Source: Stappia indica (GTDB taxonomy: Bacteria > Pseudomonadota > Alphaproteobacteria > Rhizobiales > Stappiaceae). Taken from it: 64,000 nt of DNA. The stretch spans positions 124,001-188,000 of the forward strand of contig NZ_JAIVMG010000001.1 in the NCBI RefSeq assembly GCF_020177335.1, in the 5' to 3' direction. The translations under genes were made by a program, and so were the position numbers. The notes under the pieces are model-generated. The model was not told where the DNA came from and did not search any database. It worked only from the letters and a program-made list of their open reading frames with translations. Shown here one piece after another: positions 7,386 to 48,066 of this stretch (position 1 is the stretch's first letter; each line of letters starts with the position of its first letter).

Positions 7386-7695
7386 GGGCAACGGTGCCGC
7401 TCGGCGTCATCAACTCATTGCGGTGAATTCGTCTCTCATTCATGCGCTGACGAAGACGATGACCGCGCGCATGGCGGTATTCGGTGCCCCGCACCTCGGC
7501 GTCCTCCCGGCCCCCGAGCCGGGATCGGGGGGCCAGAAGACGTGCGTTTTCATCGGGGTGGAGGCGCGGGGCCGTGGCTCTCCGGTCCCGGGTCGCGCTG
7601 ACGCTTCGTCCGGGAGGACGCGCGGAGAGCGGGGCCGTCTCAAGAGCAGAGCAGCCCCTACCACGGCTCCGCTTTGCTGCGTCAGGGATGACGCC
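7386..7695 (+). repeat. Dispersed intergenic repeat, copy A (with 12-bp inverted ends)
   Basis: This non-coding block between two terminators contains GCGTCCTCCCGG at 7499-7510 and its exact inverse CCGGGAGGACGC at 7610-7621. The sequence between, and the left-hand extension beginning GGGCAACGG with CGTCATCAACTCATT, recur at 42278-42533 in the same orientation. The inverted-end unit recurs in reverse orientation at 32.3 kb and, incomplete, at 47.9 kb. It has no plausible protein frame. It is possibly a small non-autonomous element or a mosaic REP/RIME-like intergenic repeat. Outer boundaries are approximate. Confidence 0.72.
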
Positions 7696-7704
7696 CGATT
7701 ACAT

Positions 7705-7744
7705 GAAAAAGGCCCGCCTGTTGGATAACAGGCGGGCCTTTTTC
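7705..7744. terminator. Bidirectional terminator between der and the SDR gene
   Basis: A perfect 18-bp inverted repeat (7705-7722 and 7727-7744) with loop GGAT has A5 on its left and T5 on its right edge, so either strand reads as a GC stem followed by U-run. It ends 14 bp beyond the stop of the minus-strand SDR gene, for which it is the likely main terminator. Confidence 0.92.
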
Positions 7745-7758
7745 ACGTTCTGGCTTCC

Positions 7759-8502
7759 TTACGAGGAGACTTGCACGAAGTCCCGCAACTCCTTCGACGG
7801 GAAGTCGAAAAGCTGGCCATTCGCCGTGTTCTCCGGGGACACGAGGTCGAGCAGATGCGGTACCAGCTCGGACGGGTGCGGCAGGGTCTCCGGATCCTCG
7901 CCGGGCATGGCCTGCGCCCGCATGGCGGTGCGCATCGGGCCGGGGTTGACCAGCATGCCGGTGATCGGCGTGGTCAGGGTCTCGGCGACATAGGTGCGCA
8001 CCAGCGCTTCCAGGGCTGCCTTCGATACCGAGTAGGGGCCCCAGTAGGCCTTGCACTTGTGAGCCGCGCCTGAGGACAGGAACAGGGCACGCCCGGCATC
8101 CGACTGGCGCAGCAACGGGTCGAGCGAGCGGATCAGACGCCAATTGGCGGTGACGTTGATCGCCATCACCTTGTCCCAGGTCTTGGGATCGACATGGCCG
8201 AGCGGCGACAGGCCGCCGAGGATGCCGGCGTTGCCGATGAGGATATCCAGCTTCTTCCAGCGTTCGTAAAGTGCGGCGCCGAGCCGGTCGAGAGCGTCGT
8301 AGTCGGTCAGGTCGACCGGCACCAGCGTCGCCTGGCCACCGTCGGCGCGGATCTCGTCGTCGAGCTCCTCCAACCCGCCGACCGTGCGTGCGACCGCCAC
8401 CACATGGGCACCTTCCGCCGCCAGCGCGCGGGCCGTGAAATAGCCGATACCGCGCGAGGCGCCGGTGACCACGGCGACCCGTCCTTCAAACCGTTTCGTC
8501 AT
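7759..8502 (-). CDS. SDR family NAD(P)-dependent oxidoreductase
   Basis: The 247-residue classical short-chain dehydrogenase has the nucleotide-binding TGASRGIG (about residues 14-21), NAG (about 91-93), and the catalytic Ser plus YSVSK. The C-terminal region has PGPMRTAMR, typical of the flexible substrate-loop segment. The family reduces or oxidises carbonyl/hydroxyl groups in the cytoplasm; the substrate is unknown. It begins 7 bp after purF ends on the same strand, so it is the last gene of the purF transcript and ends at a strong bidirectional terminator. Confidence 0.88.
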   Translation of the reverse strand: MTKRFEGRVAVVTGASRGIGYFTARALAAEGAHVVAVARTVGGLEELDDEIRADGGQATLVPVDLTDYDALDRLGAALYERWKKLDILIGNAGILGGLSPLGHVDPKTWDKVMAINVTANWRLIRSLDPLLRQSDAGRALFLSSGAAHKCKAYWGPYSVSKAALEALVRTYVAETLTTPITGMLVNPGPMRTAMRAQAMPGEDPETLPHPSELVPHLLDLVSPENTANGQLFDFPSKELRDFVQVSS

Positions 8503-8509
8503 GCGTGAT

Positions 8510-9985
8510 TTATCCTACTTCGACCAGACGCGGGAGGTGGGTGACATCGCCTTCCTCGGCCATGTCCGTGAGCGGCGTCGGATAGTCGCCGGTGAAGCAG
8601 TGATCGGTAAACTGCGGGGCGTCGTTGTCGCGCCCTTCGTAGCCGATGGCCTTGTAGATGCCGTCGACCGACAGGAAGGCCAGGGAATCGGCGCCAATGT
8701 AATTGCGCATTTCCTCAAGGCTGTACTTGGCGGCCAGCAGCTTCTCGCGCACCGGCGTGTCGATGCCGTAATAGTCGGAGAAGCGGATCGGCGGCGAGGC
8801 CAGCCGGAAATGTACCTCGCGCGCGCCCGCATCGCGGATCATCTGCACGATCTTCACCGAGGTGGTGCCGCGCACCAGGCTGTCATCAACCAGAACCACC
8901 CGCTTGCCCTCGATCTGGGCCCGGTTGGCGGAGTGCTTCAGCCGCACGCCGAGGGTGCGGATCTGCTGGGTCGGCTCGATGAAAGTCCGGCCGACGTAGT
9001 GGTTGCGGATGATGCCGAGCTCGAAGGGAATGCCGGAGGCATCGGCGTAGCCGAGCGCGGCGGGAACACCGGAATCGGGCACCGGCACCACCACATCGGC
9101 CTCGACCGGGGTTTCCTGCGCGAGCTGGCGACCGAACTCCTTGCGCACATTGTAGACGCTGCGCCCGCCCAGGATGGAATCGGGCCGCGAGAAGTAGATG
9201 TATTCGAAGATGCAAGGGCGGGCCGGCCGGCGGCCGAAGGGGAAGTAGCTTTCGATGCCGCTGGGGCTGCAGACCACCACTTCGCCGTTTTCCACCTCAC
9301 GGATGAAGGTGGCGCCGATGATGTCGAGGGCGCAGGTCTCCGAGGCGAAGATCGGCGCGCCATTGAGGTCGCCGAGCACCAGCGGGCGGATGCCATAGGG
9401 ATCGCGGGCGCCGATCAGCTTCTTGCGGGTCAGCGCCACCAGCGAATAGGCGCCTTCCATCTGCGAGATGGCATCGATGAACCGGTCGACGATCTTGTCC
9501 TTGCGGCTGCGGGCCACAAGCTGGAGCACGACCTCAGAATCGGAGGTCGACTGGCAGATGGCGCCTTCCTTGATCAGCTTGCGCCGCAAGGTCATGGCAT
9601 TGGTGAAATGGCCGTTGTGGCAAACGGCGATGCCGCCGCCATCCAGCTCGGCGAACAAGGGCTGCACATTGCGCAGGATCGTTTCGCCGGAGGTGGAATA
9701 GCGCACATGGCCGATGGCGTAGGGGCCGTTCAGGCGGCTGATCGTCTCCGCATTGGAGAAGTGATCGCCGACGAGGCCGAGATGGCGCTCGGAGCGGAAC
9801 TGGCTGCCGTCGAAGGTGACGATGCCGGCCGCTTCCTGCCCGCGGTGCTGCAGAGCATGAAGGCCGAGCGCCGTGATGGCGGCCGCGTCATCATGGCCGA
9901 GAACGCCGAACACCCCACATTCTTCGTGCAGGGTATCGCCGTCCAAATCATCCTGTGAAAGCTCCAGCGTGGTGTCGCTGATCAT
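8510..9985 (-). CDS. purF: Amidophosphoribosyltransferase
   Basis: PurF makes 5-phosphoribosylamine from PRPP and glutamine, the first committed step of purine synthesis. The N-terminal glutaminase domain starts at Cys23 in HEECGVFGVLGHDD, so a short propeptide must be cleaved to expose the nucleophile. The PRPP-binding signature VVLVDDSLVRGTTS lies in the C-terminal half. I chose the ATG at 9985, which gives 491 residues; an ATG ten codons upstream is possible. cvpA lies directly upstream, the same pairing as in Escherichia coli. Confidence 0.95.
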   Translation of the reverse strand: MISDTTLELSQDDLDGDTLHEECGVFGVLGHDDAAAITALGLHALQHRGQEAAGIVTFDGSQFRSERHLGLVGDHFSNAETISRLNGPYAIGHVRYSTSGETILRNVQPLFAELDGGGIAVCHNGHFTNAMTLRRKLIKEGAICQSTSDSEVVLQLVARSRKDKIVDRFIDAISQMEGAYSLVALTRKKLIGARDPYGIRPLVLGDLNGAPIFASETCALDIIGATFIREVENGEVVVCSPSGIESYFPFGRRPARPCIFEYIYFSRPDSILGGRSVYNVRKEFGRQLAQETPVEADVVVPVPDSGVPAALGYADASGIPFELGIIRNHYVGRTFIEPTQQIRTLGVRLKHSANRAQIEGKRVVLVDDSLVRGTTSVKIVQMIRDAGAREVHFRLASPPIRFSDYYGIDTPVREKLLAAKYSLEEMRNYIGADSLAFLSVDGIYKAIGYEGRDNDAPQFTDHCFTGDYPTPLTDMAEEGDVTHLPRLVEVG

Positions 9986-10044
9986 CGCTTTGCTCCTGGG
10001 CAGATGTCGCATCAAGGATGCCGGAAGCCGGTCCGGCGCGCCGT

Positions 10045-10677
10045 TCAGTTGTTGGTCGAACCGGGCGCGGTCAATTGTTCGAGACCGCGACGTTCAGAAT
10101 CCGAATAGGCCGGCTCTTCCGCCGGAACCGCGCCACCTTGCGCGGGAGACGGGGCCTGGCCGGTGCGGTTGCGGATCCGGTCAAGGATTTCCTTTTCCGG
10201 GTTCTCCGGCAGCGTGGCGACCAGCTTGTCGCCGATCGTGTCCAGCATCGGCTTCGACTTGGCGCCGGCGACCCAGGCGGGCTGTTCCGTCGCCGGGACG
10301 AACCAGTTGAAGAACAGCATCGCGACCACCACCAGCAGCAGCCCGCGCAGCGCGCCGAAGACAAAGCCAAGGGTCCGATCAAGCGCGCCAATCCGGCTGT
10401 CGAGCACGAAATCCGAAATCCGCATGGTAATATAGCTGACGATGATCAGCGTGACGAGGAAAACACCGGCCACGGAGACACCGAGTGCCACCTGCTCATG
10501 GCCGATATACTGCTTGGCGAAGGGCAGAACCTGGCCATAAAGGAAATAGGCGGCCACAGCCGCCGCGACCCATGAAGCGATCGACAGGACCTCGCGGACG
10601 AAGCCGCGGATCATGGCGAGGACCGCCGACATGAGCATGATGACGAGGAGGATTCCGTCGAGAAGCGTGATCGGCAT
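10045..10677 (-). CDS. cvpA: CvpA family inner membrane protein
   Basis: The 210-residue protein starts at MPITLLDGILLVIMLMSA, a typical CvpA N-terminus, and has about four membrane helices in its first 130 residues, including GFVREVLSIASWVAAAVAAYF. The C-terminal 80 residues are polar and probably lie outside the membrane. CvpA was named for colicin V production; in other bacteria it contributes to envelope stress tolerance, and its biochemical activity is unclear. The start at 10677 is preferred over an upstream ATG at 10725 because it matches the family N-terminus. It lies just upstream of purF. Confidence 0.9.
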   Translation of the reverse strand: MPITLLDGILLVIMLMSAVLAMIRGFVREVLSIASWVAAAVAAYFLYGQVLPFAKQYIGHEQVALGVSVAGVFLVTLIIVSYITMRISDFVLDSRIGALDRTLGFVFGALRGLLLVVVAMLFFNWFVPATEQPAWVAGAKSKPMLDTIGDKLVATLPENPEKEILDRIRNRTGQAPSPAQGGAVPAEEPAYSDSERRGLEQLTAPGSTNN

Positions 10678-10755
10678 TGCTCCGCACAGTCCCTGATCGC
10701 TGCCATTACGGCGTGGTCGGCCCATTGATCCGCGTGGGCCGGGCGCGGTTCGATC

Positions 10756-12150
10756 CTATGACGCGGGATCTCCGGCAGAGCCGGCTGCGATACGGCTTAC
10801 CAGTTCGGCCAATTCCGAAAGTCCGGTAACCGCCGCTTCTTCGACCTTGCCGTCACTGATGTTTGCCTCCGGCACGACCGCAGTCGAGAACCCGAGCTTG
10901 CGTGCTTCCTTCAACCGGCTTTGCCCTTGCGAGACCGGCCGTACCGCCCCGGAAAGGCTGACCTCGCCGAAATAGACGCAATCGGCTGGAAGGGCAACCC
11001 CGCTGAGCGAGGAGATCAGCGCCGCGGCCACCGCAAGATCGGCGCCGGTCTCGGTAATCCGCAAGCCGCCGGCGACGTTGAGGTAGACGTCGTTCTGGGA
11101 AAAGCGGACGCCGCAGCGCGCTTCCAGCACGGCGAGAATCATCGACAGGCGGGCGCTGTCCCAGCCCAGCACCGAACGGCGCGGGGTGCCGAGCGGCGAG
11201 GGAGCGACCAGCGCCTGGATCTCGATCAGCAGCGGCCGGGTGCCTTCAAGGCCGGCGAACACCGCCGCGCCAGGGGACCGGCCGCTGCGTTCGCCGAGGA
11301 ACATCGCCGACGGGTTGGCGACCTCGCGCAGGCCAGCGTCGGACATCTCGAAGACGCCGATTTCGTCGGTGGCGCCGAAGCGGTTCTTCACCGAGCGCAG
11401 GATACGGTACTGATGCGCGCCATCGCCCTCGAAATAGAGCACCGCATCGACCATGTGCTCGACGACCCGGGGGCCGGCGATTTGCCCGTCCTTGGTGACG
11501 TGGCCGACGAGAATCACGGTGGCGCCGCTCGACTTGGCATAGCGCACCAGCGCCTGGGCCGAGGCGCGGACCTGGGAGACCGTTCCGGGTGTGGAATCGA
11601 TGGTCTCGGTCCACAGGGTCTGGATGGAATCGATGATCACCAGCGCCGGCGGCGGTCCGGCGGTCAGGGTGGCGAGGATATCCTCCACGCTGGTTTCCGC
11701 CGCCAGCCCCACCGGCGCATCGGCAAGGCCAAGGCGGGCGGCGCGCAGACGCACCTGGCCGATGGCCTCCTCGCCGGAAATGTAGACCGCCTTGTGCCCC
11801 AGCCGGGCGACCCGGGCCGCCGCCTGGATCAGGAGGGTCGATTTGCCAATCCCCGGATCGCCGCCGACCAGCAGCGCCGAGCCGCGCACGAAGCCGCCGC
11901 CGGTCACCCGGTCGAGTTCGCCGACCTTGGTGGCGATGCGCGGAGCTTCTTCCGTGTCGCCGGTCAGCCCAACGAGCGGGACGACCCGGCCCTTGCGTCC
12001 GGCCACCGGGTTGGGGGTGCCGCCGACGCCGCCGCCGGTGCGTTCCTCGACCAGGGTGTTCCATTCGCCGCAGGCATCGCAGCGGCCGGCCCATTTGCCA
12101 GTGGTGGCACCGCAGGACTGGCAGACGAAGGAGGTGCCGCGCTTGGCCAT
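10756..12150 (-). CDS. radA: DNA repair protein RadA (Sms)
   Basis: The 464-residue protein has the complete RadA layout: an N-terminal C4 zinc finger (CQSCGATTGKWAGRCDACGEW, about residues 10-30), a RecA-like ATPase with Walker A GGDPGIGKST, the RadA-specific motif VKNRFGATDE and a Lon-protease-like C-terminal domain. RadA promotes branch migration during recombinational repair. The start codon overlaps the alr stop by one base (TGATG), so the two genes are translationally linked. Confidence 0.95.
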   Translation of the reverse strand: MAKRGTSFVCQSCGATTGKWAGRCDACGEWNTLVEERTGGGVGGTPNPVAGRKGRVVPLVGLTGDTEEAPRIATKVGELDRVTGGGFVRGSALLVGGDPGIGKSTLLIQAAARVARLGHKAVYISGEEAIGQVRLRAARLGLADAPVGLAAETSVEDILATLTAGPPPALVIIDSIQTLWTETIDSTPGTVSQVRASAQALVRYAKSSGATVILVGHVTKDGQIAGPRVVEHMVDAVLYFEGDGAHQYRILRSVKNRFGATDEIGVFEMSDAGLREVANPSAMFLGERSGRSPGAAVFAGLEGTRPLLIEIQALVAPSPLGTPRRSVLGWDSARLSMILAVLEARCGVRFSQNDVYLNVAGGLRITETGADLAVAAALISSLSGVALPADCVYFGEVSLSGAVRPVSQGQSRLKEARKLGFSTAVVPEANISDGKVEEAAVTGLSELAELVSRIAAGSAGDPAS

Positions 12151-13355
12151 CAGTTGGCCGCGTCCGCGGCGGTGCCGTTGTCGGCGGCGGTGTCCGGCAG
12201 GTAGCGCCGGGTGAAACGTGCGCCCAGCGAGGTGAGGAACTCATAGCCGATGGTGCCGGCGCAGGAAGCGGCTTCATCGACGGAGACATGCGGGCCGAAC
12301 AGCTCGACCAGAGCGCCGGGGACGGCCTTGTCCATCGGGACGTTGGTGACGTCGAAGGCGGTCATGTCCATGGAGACCCGGCCAAGCACCGGCAGATAAT
12401 GGCCGGCGAGCCAGGCGCGGGCGCCAGGCTGTCCGCTGGCGGAGCCGGCGCGCCGCATGTAGCCATCCGCGTAGCCGGCGGCCACCATGGCCACCTGCAT
12501 GTCCCGCTCGGCGGCGAAGGCCGCGCCATAGCCGATGGTGTCGCCCTTTTTCAGCGGGTGCACCTGAAGGATGCGCGCTTCCAGCGTGACGACGGTCTTG
12601 AGGAGGCTTTCCTCGTTCGCCGTGGCCTGCGAGCCATAAAGGGCGATGCCGGGGCGGGCGAGATCGAAATGATATTCCGGCCCAAGGAAGATGCCGGCGG
12701 AATTGGCCAGCGACTTGCGCGCATCCGGAAACAGCCTGGCAAGTTCGCGAAAGCGGCCGAGCTGGCGGTCGTTCATCGGGTTTCCCGGCATGTCCGCGCA
12801 GGCCAGATGCGAGATCACCAGCGCGGGGCGAAAGCCGGAGGCGGCAACCGCCCGCGCCTCGTCCGGGGAGAGGCCAAGCCGGCTGATGCCGGTGTCCACA
12901 TGCAGGGCGGCGGGGCAGGGGGCGTCGGTGCGGCGGGCGTGATCGGCCCATTCCGCCACATCGGCGGGGGTGGCGAGAACCGGCCGCAGGCCGTGGCGGC
13001 TGTAGGCGGGGGCGGCGCCCGAGTAGAGGCCGTTCAGCACATAGATTTCCGCCTCAGCCGCTTCCGGACCCATGGCGGCAAGGTCGCGGCGCAGATTTGC
13101 CCCTTCCTGCGGGGTGGCGACGAAGAAGCTGCGGCAGCCGGCGCGCCACAGGGTACGGGTCGCTTCACCCGCACCAAGGCCGTAGCCGTCGGCCTTGACG
13201 GCGGCACCGCAGCGGGCACCGCCCGAAAGCTGTGCGGCCAGCGTGCGCCAGTTGTCGGCCAGCGCGCCGAGGTCGACCGTAATCCGACCGTTTTCCGGGA
13301 ACTCCGCCCCGTCCCGGTCACCCGTTCCTTGCGAGACCTTCACATCCTGATCCAT
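12150..13355 (-). CDS. alr: Alanine racemase
   Basis: Alr interconverts L- and D-alanine for peptidoglycan. The 401-residue protein has the PLP lysine in AAVKADGYGLG (near residue 50), then LHVDTGISRLG, and KKGDTIGYGAAF and AAGYADGYMRR in the C-terminal beta domain. The reading frame extends upstream into the dnaB region, but the first 97 codons are unlike any Alr. I therefore start at the ATG at 13355, with a GTG at 13379 as an alternative. It lies between dnaB and radA on the same strand, a typical alphaproteobacterial order. Confidence 0.93.
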   Translation of the reverse strand: MDQDVKVSQGTGDRDGAEFPENGRITVDLGALADNWRTLAAQLSGGARCGAAVKADGYGLGAGEATRTLWRAGCRSFFVATPQEGANLRRDLAAMGPEAAEAEIYVLNGLYSGAAPAYSRHGLRPVLATPADVAEWADHARRTDAPCPAALHVDTGISRLGLSPDEARAVAASGFRPALVISHLACADMPGNPMNDRQLGRFRELARLFPDARKSLANSAGIFLGPEYHFDLARPGIALYGSQATANEESLLKTVVTLEARILQVHPLKKGDTIGYGAAFAAERDMQVAMVAAGYADGYMRRAGSASGQPGARAWLAGHYLPVLGRVSMDMTAFDVTNVPMDKAVPGALVELFGPHVSVDEAASCAGTIGYEFLTSLGARFTRRYLPDTAADNGTAADAAN

Positions 13356-13437
13356 CAGTTCGTTTGTCGCCGTGGGCACGGCTGCGCCCTCTAACGTCCC
13401 GGCTTCGCGCGCCAGAATCGGATGGCGCGTTGGTAAC

Positions 13438-14916
13438 CTACTCGTGAGGTTCGGGGAAACGGTCACTTTCGGCAAGGTCGGAGAAGCGGGTGAACTCGCC
13501 CTGGAAGTGCAGGTTGGCGGTGCCGGTCGGGCCGTGACGCTGCTTGGCGACGATGACTTCCGCCCGGTTCCGAACCCGTTCCAGCTTTTCCATGTCCTCG
13601 GGCGTTGCCTCGTTGCCGATAGCCTTGGCCAGATAATATTCCTCACGGAACACGAACATCACCACGTCCGCGTCCTGCTCGATCGAGCCCGATTCGCGAA
13701 GGTCCGACAGGATCGGCCGCTTGTCGTCGCGCGATTCGACCTGGCGGGAGAGCTGGGACAGGGCGATGATCGGGACGTTCAACTCCTTCGCCAGCGCCTT
13801 GAGCCCGGTGGTGATCTCGGTGATTTCCTGGACGCGGTTACCCTGGTTCTTCTGCGAGCCGGACAGAAGCTGGATGTAGTCGACGATCAAAAGGTCAAGG
13901 CCGCGCTGACGCTTCAGGCGGCGGGCGCGGGCGACGAGCTGCGCGATGGAGATACCACCGGTCTGGTCCACATGCAGCGGCACGGCCTGCATGGTCTGGG
14001 ATGCGGCCGCCAGCTTCTCGAAGTCATGCTCGCTGATGTCGCCACGGCGGATCTTCGAGGAGGAGATTTCGGTTTGCTCGGAAATGATACGGGTGGCCAG
14101 CTGTTCGGCCGACATTTCCAGCGAGAAGAAGCCGACCACACCGCCATTGGTGGTCTTGAGCGCGCCGTCGGGCTGTTCCTCGGCCCGGTAGGCCTCGGCG
14201 ACATTATAGGCGATGTTGGTGGCGAGCGAGGTCTTGCCCATGGCCGGACGTCCGGCCAGGACGATAAGGTCGGAGGGCTGCAAGCCGCCCATCAGCGCAT
14301 CGAGATCCTTCAGCCCGCTGGAAATGCCCGACAGGGCGCCCTCGCGCTGGTAGGCGGCGGCGGCCATTTCGATGGTGGCCGAAAGGGCGTCACCGAAGGA
14401 GACGAAGCCGGCGTCGCTGCGGCCCTTTTCCGCCAGTTCGAACAGGCGCCGTTCCGCATCGTCGATCTGCGCTTCCGGCGGCATTTCGATCGGCGCGTCA
14501 TAGGCGATGTTGACCATGTCCTCGCCGATGCGGATCAGATTGCGGCGAATGGCAAGGTCATAGATCGCCTGGCCGTAATCCTCGGCATTGATGATCGAGG
14601 CAGCATCGGCGGTCAGGCGCAGGATGTATTGCGCCGCCGGCAGGTCGGCGATCCGCGCGTCATGCGCGAAGAAGGTCTTCAGCGTGATCGGCGAGGCGAT
14701 CTTGCCGGCGCGGATGAGCTGGCCGGCCTTCTCGTAGATCTCGCGATGCGGCTGAATATAGAAATGGCCGGGTTCGAGGAAATCCGAGACCCGGTAGTAG
14801 GTTTCGTTGTTGACGATGATCGCGCCCAGGAGCTGCCGTTCGGCTTCCGCGTTATGCGGCGCCACGCGCATCACGGTTGCGTCGTTCTTGTCGGGCGCTG
14901 GTGCCGGACCGTTCAT
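13438..14916 (-). CDS. dnaB: Replicative DNA helicase DnaB
   Basis: The 492-residue protein has an N-terminal DnaB domain (HNAEAERQLLGAIIVNNE) that contacts primase, a linker, and a RecA-like helicase core with Walker A GRPAMGKTS, the segment RRLKRQRGLDLLIVDYIQL and the arginine-finger region DLRESGSIEQDADVV. No intein is present. The ATG at 14916 follows GAGGAAACGAG, better than the upstream ATG at 15015. It is the hexameric helicase of the replication fork. Confidence 0.96.
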   Translation of the reverse strand: MNGPAPAPDKNDATVMRVAPHNAEAERQLLGAIIVNNETYYRVSDFLEPGHFYIQPHREIYEKAGQLIRAGKIASPITLKTFFAHDARIADLPAAQYILRLTADAASIINAEDYGQAIYDLAIRRNLIRIGEDMVNIAYDAPIEMPPEAQIDDAERRLFELAEKGRSDAGFVSFGDALSATIEMAAAAYQREGALSGISSGLKDLDALMGGLQPSDLIVLAGRPAMGKTSLATNIAYNVAEAYRAEEQPDGALKTTNGGVVGFFSLEMSAEQLATRIISEQTEISSSKIRRGDISEHDFEKLAAASQTMQAVPLHVDQTGGISIAQLVARARRLKRQRGLDLLIVDYIQLLSGSQKNQGNRVQEITEITTGLKALAKELNVPIIALSQLSRQVESRDDKRPILSDLRESGSIEQDADVVMFVFREEYYLAKAIGNEATPEDMEKLERVRNRAEVIVAKQRHGPTGTANLHFQGEFTRFSDLAESDRFPEPHE

Positions 14917-15076
14917 CTCGTTTCCTCGCTGCTGCCTCTCTCGTAGCGGAGGCAGGCAGGCGAGGGAAGGGTGTGGCGCGGGATTCCCGGCAAGCGTGAC
15001 GCGCCCGTGAATCACCGGGATAACCTGTGAATCACGGTTGACGTTGAGAATGTGAAGACTTTCGCCGGCTCAGGAG

Positions 15077-15102
15077 TGCCCCGCCGCCGAGACGGCGGGG
15101 CA
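15077..15102 (-). terminator. Stem-loop after the PhoX-like gene
   Basis: A perfect 10-bp stem (TGCCCCGCCG / CGGCGGGGCA) with loop CCGAGA lies 24 bp after the stop of the minus-strand phosphatase gene. It lacks a clear U-run, so it may be a weak terminator or a 3'-end stabiliser. Confidence 0.55.
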
Positions 15103-15125
15103 TCCGGTTGGCGCGGCCGGGGAGG

Positions 15126-17147: not shown

Positions 17148-17227
17148 TCTCCCTCAAGGACACGCTTCAGGTTGCGTGGATAACTGGCGGGGTCACATTC
17201 CGCTCGGGAAATTGATGCGGCCGATCC

Positions 17228-17245
17228 GTGACATTTTCATGAAAT
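17228..17245 (-). promoter_or_regulatory. Candidate Pho box before the PhoX-like gene
   Basis: Read on the minus strand, this is ATTTCAT-GAAA-ATGTCAC: two 7-mers that each match 5 of 7 positions of the PhoB half-site CTGTCAT, with the expected 4-bp spacer. It lies 81-98 bp upstream of the phosphatase start. The 394-bp divergent gap 17148-17541 holds no gene. Confidence 0.55.
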
Positions 17246-20753: not shown

Positions 20754-20760
20754 GGTTCCG

Positions 20761-21804
<1,044 letters not shown>

Positions 21805-32208: not shown

Positions 32209-32217
32209 CGACAGCGA

Positions 32218-32245
32218 GGCCGGGCGCGCATCGCCGCGCCCGGCC
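32218..32245 (+). terminator. GC stem-loop after the hydrolase gene
   Basis: GGCCGGGCGCG and CGCGCCCGGCC form a perfect 11-bp stem with loop CATCGC, 9 bp after the stop. There is no T-run, so termination efficiency is uncertain. Confidence 0.6.
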
Positions 32246-32420
32246 AGTGATGCACCAAGCCCCGTGAGGGGCGTCCTCCCGGACGAAGCGCTAGCGAAGA
32301 TCCGGGAACGGCGAGCCACGGCCTTTCGGTTCCAGCCCTATGAAAACGCCCGCCTTTCGGCTCCCCGATCCCGGCTCGGGGGCGGGGATGACGCCGAGGC
32401 GCGTTCGTCCGGCCTCATTT
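32246..32420 (-). repeat. Dispersed intergenic repeat, copy B
   Basis: Inverted ends GCGTCCTCCCGG (32271-32282) and a degenerate partner CGGGGATGACGC (32383-32394) enclose a block matching the reverse complement of copy A and the plus strand of copy D. Shared words include GATCCGGGAACGGCGAGCCA versus GATCCGGGATCGGCGAGGCA in D, ATGAAAACGC in B, D and inverted A, and CCCCGATCCCGGCTCGGGGG shared with inverted A. It fills the convergent gap between the hydrolase and the GST gene. Confidence 0.7.
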
Positions 32421-37618: not shown

Positions 37619-38309
37619 GCGGGCCAATGGACCCCGGCAGTTGCCGCTGGTGTTGCCGCATGAAGCGGCCCGGGGGCGGGAAGACTTTCTCCATGGCGCC
37701 TCCAACGAGGCGGCCTTCCGCTTCATCGATTCCTGGCCGAACTGGGCGGCGCCGGTCGCCATTCTCGCCGGTCCGGTGGGGGTGGGCAAAACCCATCTGG
37801 TTAATGTCTGGCACGAGGCCAGCGGCTGCGCGGTGATCGCCGCGTCCGATCTGACCGGCGACAAGGTGTCGGAACTGGTCGAAGCGGGGGCCGTCGCGGT
37901 CGAGGATGCCCATGAGGGGCTTGATGAGAACGCCCTGTTCCATCTGCTCAACGCGGCGCGTGAGCGCGGGGCGCTGGTGCTCGTGACCGCGCGTACCTGG
38001 CCGCGCAGCTGGGGGCTGAAGCTGCCCGATCTCGCCTCGCGTCTGCGCGCGGCAACGCCGATCGAAATGGCCGAGCCGGATGACGATCTGCTCCGGCGGG
38101 TGCTGGTCAAGCTGTTCGCCGACCGCCAGGTGTTCGTCGATCCGGCGGTGATCGAGTTCCTCGCCGTGCGCATGGAGCGTTCCATCGCCGCCGCGCAGGT
38201 GCTGGTGGATGCGCTCGACCGGGCAGCCCTGTCGGTGGGGCGCCGGATCACCCGGCCGCTGGCCGCCGAGGTGCTGGAAGCGATGGAGGGCGAGTCGCGG
38301 CAAGGCTAG
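37611..38309 (+). CDS. hdaA: DnaA regulatory inactivator HdaA
   Basis: The 232-residue protein is DnaA-like AAA+ without the DNA-binding domain. It has QLPLVLPH near the N-terminus, matching the beta-clamp-binding QL[S/P]L[P/F] motif (about residues 9-14), a Walker A GPVGVGKTH and an arginine-rich sensor region. With the sliding clamp it stimulates ATP hydrolysis on DnaA after initiation. GGAGG precedes the ATG, which overlaps the upstream permease gene. Confidence 0.9.
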   Translation: MSERANGPRQLPLVLPHEAARGREDFLHGASNEAAFRFIDSWPNWAAPVAILAGPVGVGKTHLVNVWHEASGCAVIAASDLTGDKVSELVEAGAVAVEDAHEGLDENALFHLLNAARERGALVLVTARTWPRSWGLKLPDLASRLRAATPIEMAEPDDDLLRRVLVKLFADRQVFVDPAVIEFLAVRMERSIAAAQVLVDALDRAALSVGRRITRPLAAEVLEAMEGESRQG

Positions 38310-38518
38310 GTGGCGCAGACCGCTCATCGCACGCAGATCCGCCCTTTGGCCTTTTCGAATGAACGTCGAGAGAGGCGCGAATGCGCAAATCCGCGTTCAC
38401 ATGAGCGCCTTTTTCCTGGAAACGACCGGAGCGATGCAAATCCGTCAAACCCGTCCTATAAGGTGATGGCCGAGCGGCGTTTTGAGGCGCCCGGCACGAC
38501 GGCTGACAGGAGACAGGC

Positions 38519-40735: not shown

Positions 40736-42254
40736 CAACACGCCTGGACGTGTCATTCGTGGCCGGTTGAACGGCAGCGGTCCCATCGCCGTCATCGACA
40801 TCGGATCGAACTCGATCCGGCTGGTCGTCTATGAGCGGCAGGCCCGCACGCCGACGGTTCTTTTCAATGAGAAGGTGCTCGCCGGGCTCGGTCGCGGTCT
40901 TGCCGCCAGCGGGCGCCTGTCCGAGACCGCCGTGGAGATGGCGCACAAGGCGCTGGTGCGGTTTCGCCGGCTGTGCGACCAGCTCGGGGTCGACAATCTC
41001 AACATCCTGGCGACGGCGGCCACTCGCGACGCGGAAAACGGCGCGGAGTTCATCGACGGCGTGCAGAAAATCTGCCGGACGCCGGTGCGCCTGCTGTCGG
41101 GCAAGGACGAGGCGCGGCTCGCCGCGCTTGGTATCGTTTGCGGCATGTGGCGACCGGATGGCATCGTCGGCGACCTTGGCGGCGGCAGCCTCGAACTGGT
41201 CGAGTTGACCGGCAGCACCATCGGCCGGGGGCAGACGCTGCCGCTCGGTGGCATCCGTCTGCAGGAAGAGGCGGGCGGCAAGCTGGCGCGGGCGCAAAAG
41301 CTCACCGAACAGGCGCTCTCAGGGGTGGAATGGTTGCCGGTCGGGTCCGGCAAGCCGTTTTATGCCGTTGGCGGCACCTGGCGTTCGCTGGCCCGTCTGC
41401 ACCTGTTCCAGAACGGCTATCCGCTCAATGTCATGCATGACTATGCGATCGAGGCGGAGGAGGCGATCGAGTTCTGCCAGATCGTCGCCCGGCGCAATCC
41501 GGACAGCCTCGACATGATCGACGTGGTCTCCCGCGCCCGCCGGCCGCTCCTCGCCTATGGCGCGACGGTGATGGAACACGTGTTGCGGCGGAGCGGGGCC
41601 GACCGGGTGGTGATGTCGGCGCTCGGTCTGCGCGAAGGGCTGCTCTACGACCTTCTCAGCGAGGAGATCCGGGCGCAGGATCCGCTGGTGGAAGCGGCGC
41701 GGGAACTCTCGCTGTTGCGCTCGCGCTCGCCCGATTACGCCGAAGAGCTGGTGGTGTGGACCGACCGTCTGTTTCCCACCGTGGGGATCGACGAGACCGA
41801 ATACGAACGGCGGCTGCGTACGGCGGGGTGCCTCCTGTCGGACATCGGCTGGCGCGCCCATCCCGACTATCGCGGCGAGCAGAGCCTGAACATCATTTCC
41901 AATGCGGGTTTTGTTGGCATCGACCACGCGGGACGGGCTTATCTGGCCCTGTCCGTCTTCTATCGCCATCAGGGGCTGATCGACGACAGTCTCAGCCCGC
42001 GCATTCGCGAACTGGCGCACACCCGGCTGAAGGAGCGCGCGCGGCTTCTGGGCGGCGCCTTGCGGCTCGCCTCGGTGCTGAGCGCCTCGGTCGATGGCAT
42101 TCTGCCGCAGATCGGCATGGCGGTGGAGAAGGGCGAACTCGTCCTGCGTCTGCCCGGCGAGCTGGCGGCGCTGGACGGCGAGCGCCTGAGCAAGCGGGCC
42201 AACCAGTTCAGCCGTCTGCTCGGCCTGCGCAGCCGCATCGAGGCGGTCATCTGA
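40728..42254 (+). CDS. ppx: Exopolyphosphatase (Ppx/GppA family)
   Basis: The 508-residue protein has the actin-like ATPase fold with [17 protein letters not shown] and [13 protein letters not shown] as phosphate loops, and a C-terminal HD-like helical region ([15 protein letters not shown]). It removes terminal phosphates from polyphosphate or acts on pppGpp. I start at the GTG at 40728, preceded by GGAG and AGGA and overlapping the ppk stop; a TTG at 40710 is the alternative. Its last 12 bases (GCGGTCATCTGA) recur 290 bp downstream. Confidence 0.93.
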
Positions 42255-42277
42255 CCGTCTTCAGACGGCTGGCAAAG

Positions 42278-42533
42278 GGCAACGGCGCGTCCCGGCGTCA
42301 TCAACTCATTGTGCGGCGAATTCGTCTCTCATGCGCGCTTTGCGGGGGACGATGTTCCTTGCGTATGATCGAAGTCGATGCCCCGTGCCTCTGCGTCCTC
42401 CTGGCCCCCGAGGCGGGATTGGGGCGCCGAAAGATGGGGCTGGAACCGGGAGACCGTGCCGCCCCGATCCCGGATCTCCGCTTTGCTCCGTCCGGGAGGA
42501 CGCGGAGAGTGGGGCTGTGTCGTCACATTCGAC
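42278..42533 (+). repeat. Dispersed intergenic repeat, copy C
   Basis: It matches copy A along its full length: left extension GGGCAACGG then GTCATCAACTCATT and GAATTCGTCTCTCAT, followed by the inverted-end unit GCGTCCTCCTGG (42393-42404) to CCGGGAGGACGC (42492-42503). It lies between convergent ppx and rnd and is bracketed by a 12-bp direct repeat GCGGTCATCTGA at 42244-42255 and 42534-42545. Confidence 0.72.
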
Positions 42534-42575
42534 GCGGTCATCTGAGCGGCCGGCAAATCTGACCGTATGGCAAAT

Positions 42576-42610
42576 CGGGCGCCGCCGGCATTTTGCGTCG
42601 GCGGCGCCCG
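42576..42610 (-). terminator. Stem-loop after rnd
   Basis: A perfect 12-bp GC stem (42576-42587 with 42599-42610, loop GCATTTTGCGT) lies 40 bp past the rnd stop. On the minus strand it is followed by ATTTGCC, only a weak U-run. Confidence 0.6.
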
Positions 42611-42650
42611 GGATGCGTCGATTGCTCTTCAGAGCTTCACCGAAGAGCCG

Positions 42651-43874
42651 TTATTCGGCAGAGGATTTCTGGCGGCTGCGCCGCTTGCCCCGTCCCTTGG
42701 ACGGCTGCTCGCTGACGACCGGTTCGCCCTGCTCGACGGCGACGATCCGCCGGCCGTTGAAGGCAAGCGCCATCTCGCCGCGCTTCAGCTTGAGCGCGAC
42801 CTCGCCGAACAGCTCCCGGCGCCAGCCTTTCAGGGCCCCCACATCGGCGTCGTCGTCGGCGGCGATCTTTTCCAGATCCTCCACCGTGGCGATCACCTTG
42901 GCGGCTACCCCATGGGCTTCGCTGACCAGCTTCAAGAGCACCTTCAGAAGATCGACCGCGGCGGCCGAGCCATCGGGCGCGGACCGGCCCTTGGGCACTT
43001 CCGGAAGCTGGTCCTTGGGCAGATCGAGCGCCCGCTTGACGGCGGCAAGGATATCCTCCGCCGTGCGTGAGCGCTCAAAGCCGCGCGGAATGGTGCGCAG
43101 GGCGCCAAGGGCGCTGACCGTCGTCGGCTGCTGGGCGGCGATCTCGTAGATCGCGTCGTCCTTGATGATGCGGTTGCGCGGCACGTTGCGCGAATGGGCC
43201 TCGCGCTCCCGCCAGGCGGCGACTTCCTGCAGCACGGCGAATTCGATCGGCTTGCGCACCCGGAGCTTGAGCCGGCGCCAAGCGTTTTCCGGCTCGCTGC
43301 GGTAGGTGTCTTCGGAGGTCAGCACCTCCATTTCGTCACCGACCCAATGGGAGCGGCCCTGCTCGGCGAGATTCGCCTTCAGGAAGCTGTAGACGTCGCG
43401 CAGATGGGTCACATCGGCGAGCGCGTAGTCGAGCTGCTTGGTGGTCAGCGGCCGGCGCGCCCAGTCGGTGAAGCGGGACGACTTGTCGATCCGCTTGTCG
43501 GTGATGCGCTGTACGAGCTGGTCGTAGGAGATCGAATCGCCGAAGCCGCAGACCATTGCCGCGACCTGGGTATCGAACACGGGGTGGGGGATGAAACCGC
43601 CGAGGTGATAGACGATTTCGATGTCCTGCCGGGCCGCGTGGAACACCTTGATGACGCTTTCATCGCGCATCAGGTCGAAGAACGGGGCAAGGTCAAGACC
43701 TTCCGCCAGAGCATCGACGATCACCGCTTCTTCCGGGCTGGCCATCTGGACGACGCAGAGCTTCGGCCAGAAGGTGGTTTCGCGCAGGAATTCGGTATCG
43801 ACCGTGACGAAGTCATGGCGGGCAAGACGTTGGCAAACGTCGGCGAGGTCGGAGGTGCTGGTTACGATCTGCAT
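42651..43874 (-). CDS. rnd: Ribonuclease D
   Basis: The 407-residue 3'-5' exonuclease matures tRNA 3' ends. The DEDDy exonuclease core is visible as VDTEFLRE (Asp, Glu), [12 protein letters not shown] (Asp) and [11 protein letters not shown] (Tyr, Asp); an HRDC domain ([20 protein letters not shown]) follows. The start at 43874 ([13 protein letters not shown]) fits the family better than the upstream ATG at 43928. It is divergent from aspS, 233 bp away. Confidence 0.93.
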
Positions 43875-44107
43875 GTTGATCGCGACGTATATCCCAGCTT
43901 TTTCATCTTGTCGCCACGAAACCGCCATGAGTTGCGGTCAGGCAGATTTTTCTTCGAAACTGTGTCCCGGCTGCCAGACCGGGCGAGCGGCGTCCAAGTG
44001 GATCGACCGTGCCGTATCCTTGACTTTGCGGCGCTCCCGTGGCTTGTGCACCCGGCGCAGGAATGCGCCGGTCACCCGTTTTTCCAAGTCAGGCCATCGA
44101 GGAAATA

Positions 44108-45892
44108 ATGCATCGCTATCGCAGCCACACGTGCGGGGAACTGCGCGAAGACCATGTCGGTGAAACCGCGCGCCTGTCCGGCTGGGTTCATCGTGTGCGC
44201 GATCATGGCGGCTTGCTGTTCATCGATCTGCGCGATCACTATGGCATTACCCAATGCGTGGTCGATCCCGATTCGCCGGCCTTTGCCAAGGCCGAGGCGG
44301 TCCGTGCCGAATGGTGCGTGCGCATCGATGGCGAGATCAAGCGGCGCGATGCCGAGGTCATCAACGAGAATCTGCCGACGGGGCACATCGAGCTCTTCAT
44401 TCGCGATCTGGAAGTGCTGGGCGATGCGCGCGAGTTGCCGCTGCCGGTGTTCGCCGAGCCGGAGTATCCGGAAGACATTCGCCTGACCTACCGGTTCCTG
44501 GACCTGCGCCGTGAGACGCTGCACCAGAACATCATGACCCGGTCGAAGATCATCGCCTCCCTGCGCCGCCGCATGGAAGGGGTGGGCTTTGCCGAGTTCC
44601 AGACGCCGATCCTGACGGCCTCCTCGCCGGAGGGTGCCCGCGACTTCCTCGTGCCCTCGCGCCTGCATCCGGGCAAGTTCTACGCGCTGCCGCAGGCACC
44701 GCAGCAGTTCAAGCAGCTGCTGATGGTGTCGGGCTTCGACCGCTATTTCCAGATCGCGCCGTGTTTCCGCGACGAGGATCCGCGCGCCGACCGCCTGCCG
44801 GGCGAGTTCTATCAGCTTGACGTCGAGATGAGCTTCGTCGAGCAGGAGGACGTGTTCACGTCGATGGAGCCGGTCATTCGCGGCGTCTTCGAGGAGTTTG
44901 CCGAGGGCAAGCCGGTCAGCGAGACCTTCGCCCGCATTCCCTATGCTGAGGCGATCCGCAAATATGGCAGCGACAAGCCGGACCTGCGCAACCCGATCGA
45001 GATGCAGGACGTGGGCGAGCATTTCGCCGGCTCCGGCTTCAAGATCTTCGCGCGGATGCTGGAAGACCCGAAGAATGCGGTCTGGGCGATCCCGGCAAAG
45101 ACCGGCGGTAGCCGGGCCTTCTGCGACCGGATGAACTCCTGGGCGCAGGGCGAAGGCCAGCCGGGCCTTGGCTATATCTTCTGGCGTCAGGAAGGCGAGA
45201 CGGTGGAAGGCGCCGGTCCGCTGGCCAAGAACATCGGCCCGGAGCGCACCGAGGCGATCCGCCAGCAGCTCGGCCTGGAAGCAGGCGATGCGGCGTTCTT
45301 CGTCGCCGGCGATCCGAAGAAGTTCGCCGATTTTGCCGGCAAGGCCCGGACCCGCGCCGGCGAGGAGCTCGATCTGGTCGACCGCGACCGGTTCGAGCTG
45401 GCCTGGATCGTCGATTTCCCGATGTACGAATGGGACGAGGACGAGAAGAAGGTCGATTTCTCGCACAATCCGTTCTCCATGCCCCAGGGCGGCCTGGAAG
45501 GGCTTGAAACCACCGATCCGCTGGAACTGAACGCCTGGCAGTACGACATCGTCTGCAACGGCTACGAGATCGCCTCCGGCGCGATCCGGAACCACAAGCC
45601 GGAGATCATGAAGCGTGCCTTCGAGATCGCCGGCTATGACGAGGCGGTGCTGGAAGAGCGCTTCGGCGGCATGTACCGGGCTTTCCAGTATGGCGCGCCG
45701 CCGCATGGTGGCATGGCCGCCGGCATCGACCGGATCGTCATGCTGCTGGTCGGCGCGAAGAACCTGCGCGAGGTCACGCTGTTCCCGATGAACCAGCAGG
45801 CGCAGGACCTCTTGATGGGCGCGCCGTCCGACGTGTTCCCGAGCCAGTTGCGCGATCTGCATATCCGGCTCAACCTGCCGGAAAACGGCTGA
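44108..45892 (+). CDS. aspS: Aspartate--tRNA ligase
   Basis: The 594-residue class II synthetase has the N-terminal OB-fold ([19 protein letters not shown]), motif 2 ([19 protein letters not shown]), the bacterial GAD insertion and motif 3 (GIDRIVMLL). It charges tRNA-Asp; alphaproteobacterial enzymes may be non-discriminating and also charge tRNA-Asn when the GatCAB route is used, which cannot be decided from this window. AGGAAA precedes the ATG at 44108; the frame extends 23 codons upstream without support. Confidence 0.96.
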
Positions 45893-45986
45893 CCCGGATG
45901 ACCGGTTCACGGCACGCCGGCCGATTGGGGCCGGTATGCCGGTGGCCGGTCGCGACCGGATCCATTGCGCAACGAGGCATGGTCAC

Positions 45987-47774
45987 GTGTTGAAGCGGAT
46001 CGAACGCCTGCTGTTTGGCGATACGGAAGGGGCGCTCTTCCTGATCCGCCGCCTGGTGATGGAAAACGCCAGGGCTTTTGCCTGGCAGTATGCGCTTGCC
46101 TTTGTCTTCATGGGGGTGATCGCGGCGACCACCGCCGCCAGCGCCTGGATCATGCGGGACATCATCAATCAGGTGTTCCTGGAACGGAACGCCACGATGG
46201 TGCTGGTGATCGCCGGTGTCGTGCTGGTGATCTTTTCCCTTAAAGGCGCGGCCACTTATGGCCAGATGGTGGTGCTTGGGCGGATCGGCAATGCGATCGT
46301 CGCCGCCACCCAGCGCCGGTTGTTCGAGACGATCACCCGGCAGGACGTGGCCTTCTTCGAAAGCTCCGGTCTTGGCGATCTGGCCACCCGCCTGTCGCAC
46401 AATGCCGCTGCGGCGCGGGCCGCGCTCGACATGGTGGTGACCGCGGTCGGCCGCGATCTGCTGACCGTCATTGCCCTTGTCGCGGTGATGGTGGCGCAGG
46501 ATCCGGTGATGAGCCTCATTGCGCTGGTGATCGCACCGCCGGCGATCCTGCTTGTCGGCGGGCTGGTTCGCCGGGTGCGCCGGGTCGCCAAGTCGCAGTT
46601 CGTCTCGCTGTCGCGGATCCTGTCGGTGTCGCAGGAGACCGTGACTGGCATCCGGACCGTCAAGGCGTTCGGCGCCGAAGACCGGATGCGGGCCGACATG
46701 AATGCGGCTGTCGCGGAGGTGGAACGGCAGTCGAACAAGATCGTCCGCCTGACGGCGCGCACCTCGCCGGTGATGGAAACCCTCGGCGGTGTGGCGATCG
46801 CGCTGGTCATTCTCTATGGCGGCTATGCGGTGATCGAGCTGGGAAGCGATCCGGGGGCGTTCTTCGCCTTCATCACCGCGCTGCTTCTGGCCTATGATCC
46901 GGCCCGCCGGCTGGCCCGGCTCAACGTCAACCTGTCCAACAATCTGGTTGGCGTGCGGTTGATGTACGAGGTGCTGGATCGGGCGGTGGGGGAAACCGAG
47001 ACGGCAGGCTCCGCGCCGCTCGCCGTGCCGCAAGGGCGCGTCACTTTTGAGGATGTCCGCTTTCACTACGGCGAGGCGCCGGCGCTCGATGGTCTGTCCT
47101 TCGACGCGCGGCCGGGCGAGATCACCGCGCTGGTCGGTCCGTCAGGGGCGGGCAAGTCGACGGTCTTCGGCCTGCTGGAGCGGTTCTATACGCCCAACGC
47201 GGGGGCGATCCGCATCGACGGGCAGGATATCCGCGCCGCCGACACCGCCTCGGTGCGGGCGGCACTGGCCTTCGTGTCGCAGGATACCTTCCTGTTCAAC
47301 ACCACCGTGCGCGAGAATATCGCCATGGGACGGCCCGGCGCGGATGAGGCGGCCATTCGTCAGGCGGCCATTGAGGCCAATGCCCATGAGTTCATCATGG
47401 CGCTGGATCAGGGCTACGACAGCGAAGTGGGCGAGGGCGGCGGGCGCCTGTCCGGCGGTCAGCGCCAGCGGATCGCCATTGCCCGGGCCTTGCTGCGCGA
47501 TGCGCCGATCCTGTTGCTGGACGAGGCAACCTCGGCGCTCGATTCAGAATCGGAAGCCAAGGTTCAGGCGGCGCTCGCCAATCTGATGCGCGGCCGCACC
47601 ACCCTTGTCATCGCCCACCGGCTGGCGACGGTACGCGAGGCGGCGCAGATCGTTGTCATGGACCGGGGACGTGTGGTGGAGCGCGGCTCTCATGCGGAGC
47701 TCAATGCACGCGATGGCCTCTACCGGCGCCTGTGCGATCTGCAGTTCAACGGGAACGGCAACGGCGCCTCCTGA
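45987..47774 (+). CDS. ABC exporter, fused permease and ATPase (MsbA/LmrA-like)
   Basis: The 595-residue half-transporter has six membrane helices (first about 330 residues) and a nucleotide-binding domain with Walker A GPSGAGKST, signature [15 protein letters not shown] and Walker B ILLLDEATSALD. It should form a homodimer exporting lipids, peptides or drugs. Start is a GTG at 45987 with GAGG nine bases upstream; TTG at 45990 is possible. It follows aspS by 94 bp. The substrate is not evident; an MsbA-like lipid flippase role is one possibility. Confidence 0.87.
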   Translation: MLKRIERLLFGDTEGALFLIRRLVMENARAFAWQYALAFVFMGVIAATTAASAWIMRDIINQVFLERNATMVLVIAGVVLVIFSLKGAATYGQMVVLGRIGNAIVAATQRRLFETITRQDVAFFESSGLGDLATRLSHNAAAARAALDMVVTAVGRDLLTVIALVAVMVAQDPVMSLIALVIAPPAILLVGGLVRRVRRVAKSQFVSLSRILSVSQETVTGIRTVKAFGAEDRMRADMNAAVAEVERQSNKIVRLTARTSPVMETLGGVAIALVILYGGYAVIELGSDPGAFFAFITALLLAYDPARRLARLNVNLSNNLVGVRLMYEVLDRAVGETETAGSAPLAVPQGRVTFEDVRFHYGEAPALDGLSFDARPGEITALVGPSGAGKSTVFGLLERFYTPNAGAIRIDGQDIRAADTASVRAALAFVSQDTFLFNTTVRENIAMGRPGADEAAIRQAAIEANAHEFIMALDQGYDSEVGEGGGRLSGGQRQRIAIARALLRDAPILLLDEATSALDSESEAKVQAALANLMRGRTTLVIAHRLATVREAAQIVVMDRGRVVERGSHAELNARDGLYRRLCDLQFNGNGNGAS

Positions 47775-47893
47775 GCGGTGCGCCCGATCCTCCAGACACG
47801 ACTGATACGTTTCCGCTTTGGTTCTTTTTATCTTGCGCGCGCCGAAGTGTCGGCAAGGGCGCGGGCACCCGGGTCTTGTCTCGCCCCATGCAC

Positions 47894-47924
47894 AAAAAAA
47901 CGCCGCCGGTGGGAGCCGGCGGCG
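47894..47924 (-). terminator. Intrinsic terminator, minus strand
   Basis: CGCCGCCGG and CCGGCGGCG pair around TGGGAG, with seven A on the plus strand giving a U7 run for minus-strand RNA. Transcripts of the exported-protein gene at 48151 would cross the repeat copy D before ending here. Confidence 0.85.
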
Positions 47925-47930
47925 CGAGTG

Positions 47931-48066
47931 TGATGCCAAAGCCCCGAAAGAGGCGTCTTCCCGGACGACGCGCACGCGGAGATCCGGGATCGGCGAGGCA
48001 CGGCCTGTCGGTTCAGCCCCATGAAAACGCGTGTCTTCTGGCTCTCCGAGCCCGGGTCGCGCTAGA
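47931..48066 (-). repeat. Dispersed intergenic repeat, copy D (incomplete)
   Basis: The left end GCGTCTTCCCGG (47953-47964) is one mismatch from the repeat's 12-bp end. The body contains GATCCGGGATCGGCGAGGCA, ATGAAAACGC and a divergent CTCCGAGCCCGGGTCGCG. The opposite inverted end is missing; similarity fades at about 48066. Same orientation as copy B, again between convergent genes. Confidence 0.68.

Follow-up and report, generated by a model that had tools for sequence, protein, structure and literature searches.

A recently mobile CGTC-REP-like element of Stappia indica that probably inserts at terminator-like hairpins at gene 3' ends

A 64,000-nucleotide stretch of the genome of the marine bacterium Stappia indica (bases 124001-188000 of contig C1, termed the window) contains four copies, A to D, of one dispersed repeat that lies between genes facing each other. 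The repeat is probably a non-autonomous mobile element that is directed to its insertion sites by terminator-like hairpins at gene 3' ends, a reading to which a probability of roughly 0.75 is assigned. A preference for hairpins, a duplication of the target at part of the sites and a bias towards convergent gene pairs were observed, and the unit moved after two close Stappia species had split. An earlier note, made from the letters of the window alone, had taken the four blocks for copies of a common unit and had offered two readings, a non-autonomous element or a repeat of the repetitive extragenic palindromic (REP) or RIME type selected as a 3'-end insulator or terminator. Empty sites, target duplications and imperfect inverted ends bear out the first of these, and the likeness to REPs is confirmed by arms of the CGTC type. 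Selection as an insulator or terminator proved unneeded and is unsupported as the primary cause, as 9 of the 15 insertion points of empty sites lie in a hairpin and as the window copies are absent at the matching place in every other Stappia checked. A 3'-end function may nevertheless come on top of mobility.

A profile was grown from copy A by iterated nhmmer searches and applied to contigs C1 and C3 (E values per 1.6 Mb). All four blocks were recovered as one dispersed repeat with E values of 4e-15 or better, and no inverted repeat listed for the window is longer than the one formed by A and B (105 nt, 83%). The parts of the copies are as follows.

7499-7621, forward strand: core of copy A, two inverted CGTC-type hairpin arms and a spacer (profile match E 1e-23; alignment of 52 copies)
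32271-32394, reverse strand: core of copy B (profile match E 7e-26; alignment)
42393-42503, forward strand: core of copy C, with a shorter spacer (profile match E 4e-15; alignment)
47953-48084, reverse strand: core of copy D, with a degenerate right end (profile match E 2e-23; strand from the spacer reading)
7386-7498, forward strand: left extension module of copy A, common to copy C and other copies; contains CATCAACTCATTG
42278-42392, forward strand: left extension module of copy C, common to copy A

Copy D had been described as lacking its right end, which was found in degenerate form at 48070-48084. Its assignment to the strand of B is carried by the spacer, which reads like that of B, while the profile score is nearly ambiguous (83.4 vs 82.2 bits). 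Genes were called with our own codon-usage script, and among the 11 convergent gaps of the window the four longest (454, 396, 376 and 228 bp) hold A, C, D and B in that order, just as had been noted. The left extension of about 100 bp was likewise correctly seen as common to A and C, and it recurs at nine other places when up to six substitutions are allowed (copy C itself is absent from that list). Remains of a second unit apparently lie at the end of copy A, so the footprint of A exceeds the unit. The motif CATCAACTCATTG of the left extension, which resembles a binding site of integration host factor (IHF) in being near the consensus WATCAANNNNTTR, is largely conserved at 7386-7498, 42278-42392, C1:874965, C1:968486, C3:364231 and in loci L002-L005 and L013. 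IHF-like sites also occur in some enterobacterial REP composites. No match above the gathering threshold of Rfam was obtained in the window.

Contigs C1 and C3 were read whole (1,557,833 bases, 33% of the genome) and contain 45 copies by the profile, 44 of them in 32 gene gaps and one within a called open reading frame (ORF), which stands outside the gap counts. The occupied gaps comprise 23 convergent, 9 tandem and no divergent ones, so that exclusive placement between convergent genes, as suggested by the four window copies, does not extend to the 1.56 Mb. The bias itself is strong, and the test by gene direction that had been named as able to refute it did not do so in this third of the genome. 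Copies were found in 23/183 adjacent convergent pairs, 9/936 tandem pairs and 0/182 divergent pairs, and the comparison of convergent with all other pairs (23/183 vs 9/1118) yields a Fisher p of 6.5e-14. It persists with an odds ratio of 36 after stratification by gap length with 190 bp subtracted per copy. On the other contigs, the best 13 matches to A fall into 9 convergent and 4 tandem gaps. The best 30 loci of seven relatives are divided into 12 convergent, 16 tandem, 1 divergent and 1 unresolved, so the avoidance of divergent gaps (1/30) holds there too and the convergent excess is strongest in this genome. With copy A alone as the query, BLAST returned 97 matches in the genome, many of them hitting one place on both strands. 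The A unit was matched in 24 of 41 genomes, this one included, and in 8 of 23 genera, and the plasmid collection yielded one 37-base match, in Bosea. Among 80 named loci around rnd, profile matches occur in two, both from Roseibium (L188, Roseibium denhamense, 4417-4544; L192, Roseibium sediminicola, 5249-5380); these related cores indicate that the family extends beyond Stappia.

The evidence for recent movement comes from Stappia taiwanensis. Rnd of this genome is 99% identical to Rnd of S. taiwanensis CCM 7757, Der and Rnd are 98-99% identical to those of the genome treated here as S. taiwanensis (G013), and the mean identity to this species is 93.3% over 747 kb of aligned DNA. Of the 32 occupied gaps, 23 could be compared, and 15 of these are empty in S. 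taiwanensis while 8 contain a core; the remaining 9 were not comparable with the S. taiwanensis stretches used. Because 15/23 comparable gaps are empty in the sister species, the unit moved recently, after the two species split. These empty gaps include all four in which the window copies lie. No core was present within about 1.5 kb on each side of the matching der, rnd and exported-protein genes (A, C and D) in 13/13 other Stappia, or of the hydrolase match (B) in 7/7. On contig C1 of S. taiwanensis, 2 copies lie in the first 800 kb, and the matching part of this genome holds 13 copies in 10 gaps. At C1:882092-882674, where a copy is shared with S. taiwanensis (L300), the relative is about 660 bp longer beside the copy and apparently contains an ORF there, which reflects either a loss here or a gain there.

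Alignment of filled with empty sites allowed the targets to be read. Five of the 15 sites have a target overlap of 20-26 bp, four of 6-9 bp and six none. The insertion midpoint falls within a predicted hairpin at 9 of the 15 sites, where points placed at random in those gaps would give 4.2 (P = 0.003; the hairpin rule was set before this test, yet after the first alignments had been seen). The empty sites of A and C3:456417 contain terminator-like hairpins as judged by eye. Duplication of the flanks was found independently of empty sites in 5 of 30 gaps at p<0.01, with 0.3 expected; this test left out two of the 32 gaps, one longer than 700 bp and one, C1:952563, with a flank of fewer than 30 bases (the latter overlaps by 22 bp when compared with its empty site). 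Sixty further clusters from this genome and its relatives, the relatives' loci being best matches only, gave 16 cases at p<0.02 with 1.2 expected. Twelve of these are duplicated hairpins of 19-37 bp (4 in this genome and 8 in G005, G008, G011 and G015), and the other four (L314 twice, L320 and L333) were set aside by eye as element-internal repeats. T-runs lie inside the duplicated segment in three of the 12 (L016, L021 and L335, by eye). Altogether, hairpins of 19-37 bp stand on both sides of the element in 14 cases beyond the 15 empty sites, drawn from this genome and its relatives. In L311, L316, L003 and L016, the paired duplicated hairpins differ mainly in or near the loop and keep their stems, as if each were maintained as a hairpin (by eye).

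At the window copies, the following target features were recognised.

7337-7367, forward strand: terminator-like hairpin after der, left of A (by eye); present in S. taiwanensis without the element
7360-7380, forward strand: left member of the 21/22 bp duplication suggested at A, covering the T-run and the 3' half of the hairpin (p = 0.014 vs mismatched flanks)
7731-7752, forward strand: right copy of the suggested duplication at A, within a second terminator-like hairpin (about 7706-7744)
32216-32245, forward strand: target hairpin of B, uninterrupted in S. taiwanensis, ending CCGGCCTC
32246-32408, reverse strand: inserted element B (163 bp), bordered by CCGGCC at 32240-32245 and 32409-32414 (filled/empty alignment)
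42238-42257, forward strand: left copy of a 20 bp duplication at C, including the stop codon of the ppx-like gene (p = 0.0046)
42529-42548, forward strand: right copy of the duplication at C (flank and empty-site tests)
47917-47924, forward strand: left copy of an 8 bp duplication at D, 3' arm of the hairpin after an A-run
48088-48095, forward strand: right copy of the duplication at D, one mismatch (filled/empty alignment)

The empty site of B is the perfect hairpin GAGGCCGGGCGCGCATCGCCGCGCCCGGCCTC, and the element sits in its 3' arm with an overlap of 9 bp according to the aligner. At D, the empty site consists of an A-run, a hairpin and a T-run, and the element lies between two copies of the 3' arm, CGGYGGCG. 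The overlap on the empty site of C amounts to 24 bp. Copy A is flanked by two terminator-like hairpins whose 3' halves align over 21/22 bp, and no overlap was seen in its empty-site comparison with S. taiwanensis. Outside the window, 26 bp comprising half of a terminator-like hairpin and its loop are duplicated at C1:553291, a palindrome of 25-26 bp at C1:968268, a palindrome of 22 bp at C1:952563 and 20 bp at C3:324394; duplicated hairpins of 19 and 20 bp are present at C3:149734 and C3:316917. The gap at C1:952563-953053 holds three units, of which two lie 171 bp from each other and have an identical linker, and the whole block is flanked by both copies of the 22 bp palindrome, which S. taiwanensis has once.

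Several observations weigh against a mobile element guided by hairpins. At 6 of the 15 empty sites, A among them, there is no duplication, the hairpin rule places 6 of the 15 insertion points outside any hairpin, and in 25 of the 30 gaps no duplication of the flanks reaches p<0.01. Such gaps often contain hairpins, and of the 19 listed duplicated segments no more than 11 rank within the top 5% for stability when compared with windows of equal length from convergent gaps that hold no copy. These 19 cases are a chosen set, namely the 12 from the clusters, 5 from the flank test, A (p = 0.014) and C3:324452 (p = 0.06). The duplicated targets at C1:952563 and C1:968268 are palindromes without an obvious T-run. 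The duplications range from 6 to 37 bp, and such length variation is unusual for one DDE transposase. Furthermore, the convergent share is lower in the relatives (12/30), and no mobilising enzyme was found.

The structure of the unit was derived from an alignment of 52 of 64 cores (12 with fewer than 115 profile positions were excluded, and the duplicate locus L027 was dropped). The layout is GCGTC, left hairpin, spacer, right hairpin and GACGC, so that the unit consists of two GCGTC...CCCGG hairpins with their tags facing outwards. Most of the 52 rows carry GCGTC on the left and GACGC on the right, with outer bases variable or missing in some. All 52 rows have the head-head arrangement with the tags outside, a count limited by the profile, which was built on that layout, and by the fact that single arms were not sought. 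The left arm occurs with three interchangeable loop types and the right arm with two main ones, and arms of different loop types combine. Loops are 6 nt (CCCCGA type) or about 15-18 nt long, and CGG follows the stem. The second stem position is paired in 49/52 on either arm, the first in 32/52 (left) and 7/52 (right), and the remaining six pairs of each arm in 45 to 52 of 52. The arms have no T-runs behind them. The element ends were read by eye from the 19 listed elements as imperfect inverted repeats, about CAGACTGCYGACAAAGG and GTGATGACAAAGCC. In 11 of the 19 cases the flanking duplicates are spaced 166-197 bp apart, which gives the size of the element, and longer cases hold the extension or several units; a single unit thus measures about 165-195 bp, and one with the extension about 270-280 bp.

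Two-sided base changes support local arm hairpins, with 43 cells under this model vs 20.5 +- 3.4 in shuffled alignments (0 of 500). Most of them belong to the two closing pairs, one per arm (21 and 14 of the 43 cells). Neither the number of pairs with any two-sided change (7 vs 6.4) nor that of additional pair types (29 vs 31.2) exceeds the shuffles. Pairing of the two arms with each other was rejected: the minimum-energy structures of single copies do join the outer arms along much of their length, but this model has fewer two-sided cells than shuffles (9 vs 17.3), and local hairpins therefore fit better. RNAalifold alone recovered only the right arm. Three of the window copies fold better than their shuffles (z of -4.8, -2.6 and -2.1), and copy B has a z of -0.6. 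As whole arm types are exchanged, each arm appears to be kept as a hairpin, in DNA or RNA without distinction.

These features can be combined in a mechanism in which an enzyme acting in trans would insert the element at gene 3' ends, often into terminator-like hairpins or other palindromes. Attack on both strands at the 5' feet of an extruded hairpin, followed by gap repair, would duplicate the whole hairpin (19-37 bp), and attack inside an arm would give the duplications of 6-9 bp. Copying of the whole hairpin would leave a terminator for each neighbouring gene, so that the insertion could be tolerated. The convergent bias would stem from the positions of terminators, reinforced by the loss of insertions elsewhere, and insertion at terminator-like hairpins would thus explain it without an insulator role. 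The wider proposal, that CGTC-type REP dimers are a class with structure-guided insertion in which a putative enzyme attacks the feet of extruded terminators and copies the whole terminator, both genes keeping their stop, is given even odds. Two candidate enzymes were rejected. A transposase of the REP-associated tyrosine transposase (RAYT) type (PF01797) has no match in the genome (the control matched in 10/14 genomes), which speaks against mobilisation by RAYTs. Nor was a match found in the genome for DDE_Tnp_1_6 (PF13751), the domain that marks the IS1182 family (here the control matched in only 1/14 genomes), and IS1182-type mobilisation was dismissed on this basis and on the presence of duplications. 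Two simple scans of C1, C3 and 800 kb of S. taiwanensis for a parent insertion sequence (IS) with the same ends yielded nothing convincing; one weak pair was located at C1:707549-710039.

Could the location at 3' ends arise without any preference for a target? Random insertion followed by purifying selection would leave mainly insertions in convergent gaps, where no promoter or operon is broken. The lack of copies in divergent pairs (p = 0.016) fits this explanation, as does the 3'-end location described for REPs of other genomes in passages of PMC3733652. It appears improbable nonetheless, because insertion points within the same gaps favour hairpins and because selection alone does not predict the duplication of hairpins at several sites. 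Maintenance of the repeat as a bidirectional terminator or insulator at 3' ends is judged more improbable still. The strong structure, visible in the excess of two-sided changes and in the folding of three of the four window copies, would suit such a role. On the other hand, at most compared sites a terminator-like hairpin or a palindrome preceded the insertion (9/15 by the rule, others by eye), A lies between two such hairpins, T-runs are lacking behind the arms, and the window copies are missing from the matching place in other Stappia.

A role at the RNA level in 3' untranslated regions, through stability or RNase sites as proposed for other REPs and in addition to mobility, is unlikely, if less so than the foregoing. 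Two-sided changes occur in both arms, and because the target hairpin at D has its A-run side past the element, the transcript of the right-hand gene may include the element. However, most of the covariation arises at a single closing pair in each arm through the exchange of entire arm types, and the same signal could preserve a DNA hairpin recognised by an enzyme. Hairpin-sized duplications also resemble the duplication of repeats in clustered regularly interspaced short palindromic repeats (CRISPR), and Cas1 might place the element at palindromes and duplicate them in the manner of CRISPR adaptation. Two Cas1 matches are present in this genome, one with an in-frame stop, and Cas1 occurs in 7/14 Stappia. 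This integration is nevertheless highly improbable: G005 (completeness 100, contamination 3) has 42 matches and the hairpin duplications L316 and L330 with no Cas1 match, so Cas1 is not required, and both loci of this genome look like ordinary CRISPR loci.

These two CRISPR-Cas loci (L340, G000:C24:14000-24500, and L339, G000:C5:197500-208500), in which Cas1 was identified by family search, are themselves decaying. One has a Cas1 with an in-frame TAG and repeats like GTTTCAATCCACGCCCCCGTGAGGGGGCGAC. The other has a Cas9-like frame broken into two parts next to a Cas1 match, and S. taiwanensis (L341) has one ORF of 1106 codons in place of that frame. The names Cas2, Cas4 and Cas9 at these loci are presumed from the appearance of the ORFs.

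Copies newer than the split of two species, together with the footprint of duplicated terminator-like hairpins that some of them leave, make the mobility of CGTC REPs directly testable. Structure-guided insertion, if true, would answer how REPs without RAYTs move, and it offers a reason based on the target for the often noted 3'-end bias of REPs. Copying of whole terminators, if true, would be a natural case of the stem-loop duplication predicted for IS1272-like transposition and would show how mobile DNA can multiply terminators. Among the titles and abstract openings that searches of an open-licence library listed, no report on this element or on terminator-duplicating insertions was recognised.

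The element shares single traits with several known systems. Like miniature inverted-repeat transposable elements, it has target-site duplications (9/15 empty sites, 5/30 gaps and 12/60 clusters), although of no fixed length. Its ends, as read by eye, are imperfect inverted repeats. In passages of PMC2229807, the CIR repeats of Caulobacter and Brucella are described as intergenic, about 110 bp long and composed of two arms and a linker, all of which is similar here, with a conserved GANTC. That motif occurs in 5/52 Stappia copies vs an average of 15.8 after shuffling, and an assignment to the CIR elements was rejected, the distinction being drawn from the CIR description with no CIR sequence compared. 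The IS1272/IS1182 family targets inverted repeats, and four insertions lie immediately downstream of genes, according to passages of PMC5678879; pathway b of the IS1272 model predicts duplication of the whole stem-loop, whereas IS1272 itself replaces the stem-loop without duplication (PMC5678879). The Stappia element thus resembles IS1272 in its inverted-repeat targets at gene ends and differs in duplicating, at part of the sites, what IS1272 replaces. It also recalls the REPIN, an inverted REP pair with a spacer, but has a CGTC rather than a GTAG tag and no PF01797 match in its genome. In the REPIN/RAYT system, the inverted REP pair and its spacer are the mobile unit and the tag is GTAG. Y1 transposition is not known to make target duplications, which the Stappia element has.

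When REP families were compared, the CGTC superfamily emerged as the closest; RIME, which had also been proposed, was left out of the sequence comparison. In passages of the survey by Di Nocera et al. (2013, PMC3733652), CGTC-tagged REPs have the CGTC tag, a stem of 8-9 bp with AT pairs in the first and second position, a loop of 4-5 nt (other loops in some families) and a 3-nt tail that is mostly CCA. They form mainly head-head dimers, often heterodimers, lie for the most part between convergent and unidirectional genes, and have no known associated transposase; mobilising transposases, if any, and ongoing formation of copies were left open (PMC3733652). The terms "target site" and "terminator" do not occur in its main text. 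As far as these passages describe the family, the Stappia element agrees with it in the tag outside a GC-rich stem, the head-head heterodimers, the conserved structured spacer, the alphaproteobacterial host, the 3'-end location and the lack of a known associated transposase. The stem agrees only in part, its second position being mostly paired and its first often unpaired. The element departs from the description in its loops (6 or about 15-18 nt, not 4-5), in CGG rather than CCA after the stem, and in the placement of the dimer within a larger element with ends of its own, for which target duplications and hairpin targeting were found here. It is a variant of the published CGTC-tagged REP dimers, its mode of insertion may itself be new, and what is added to the known CGTC REPs is recent movement and a footprint.

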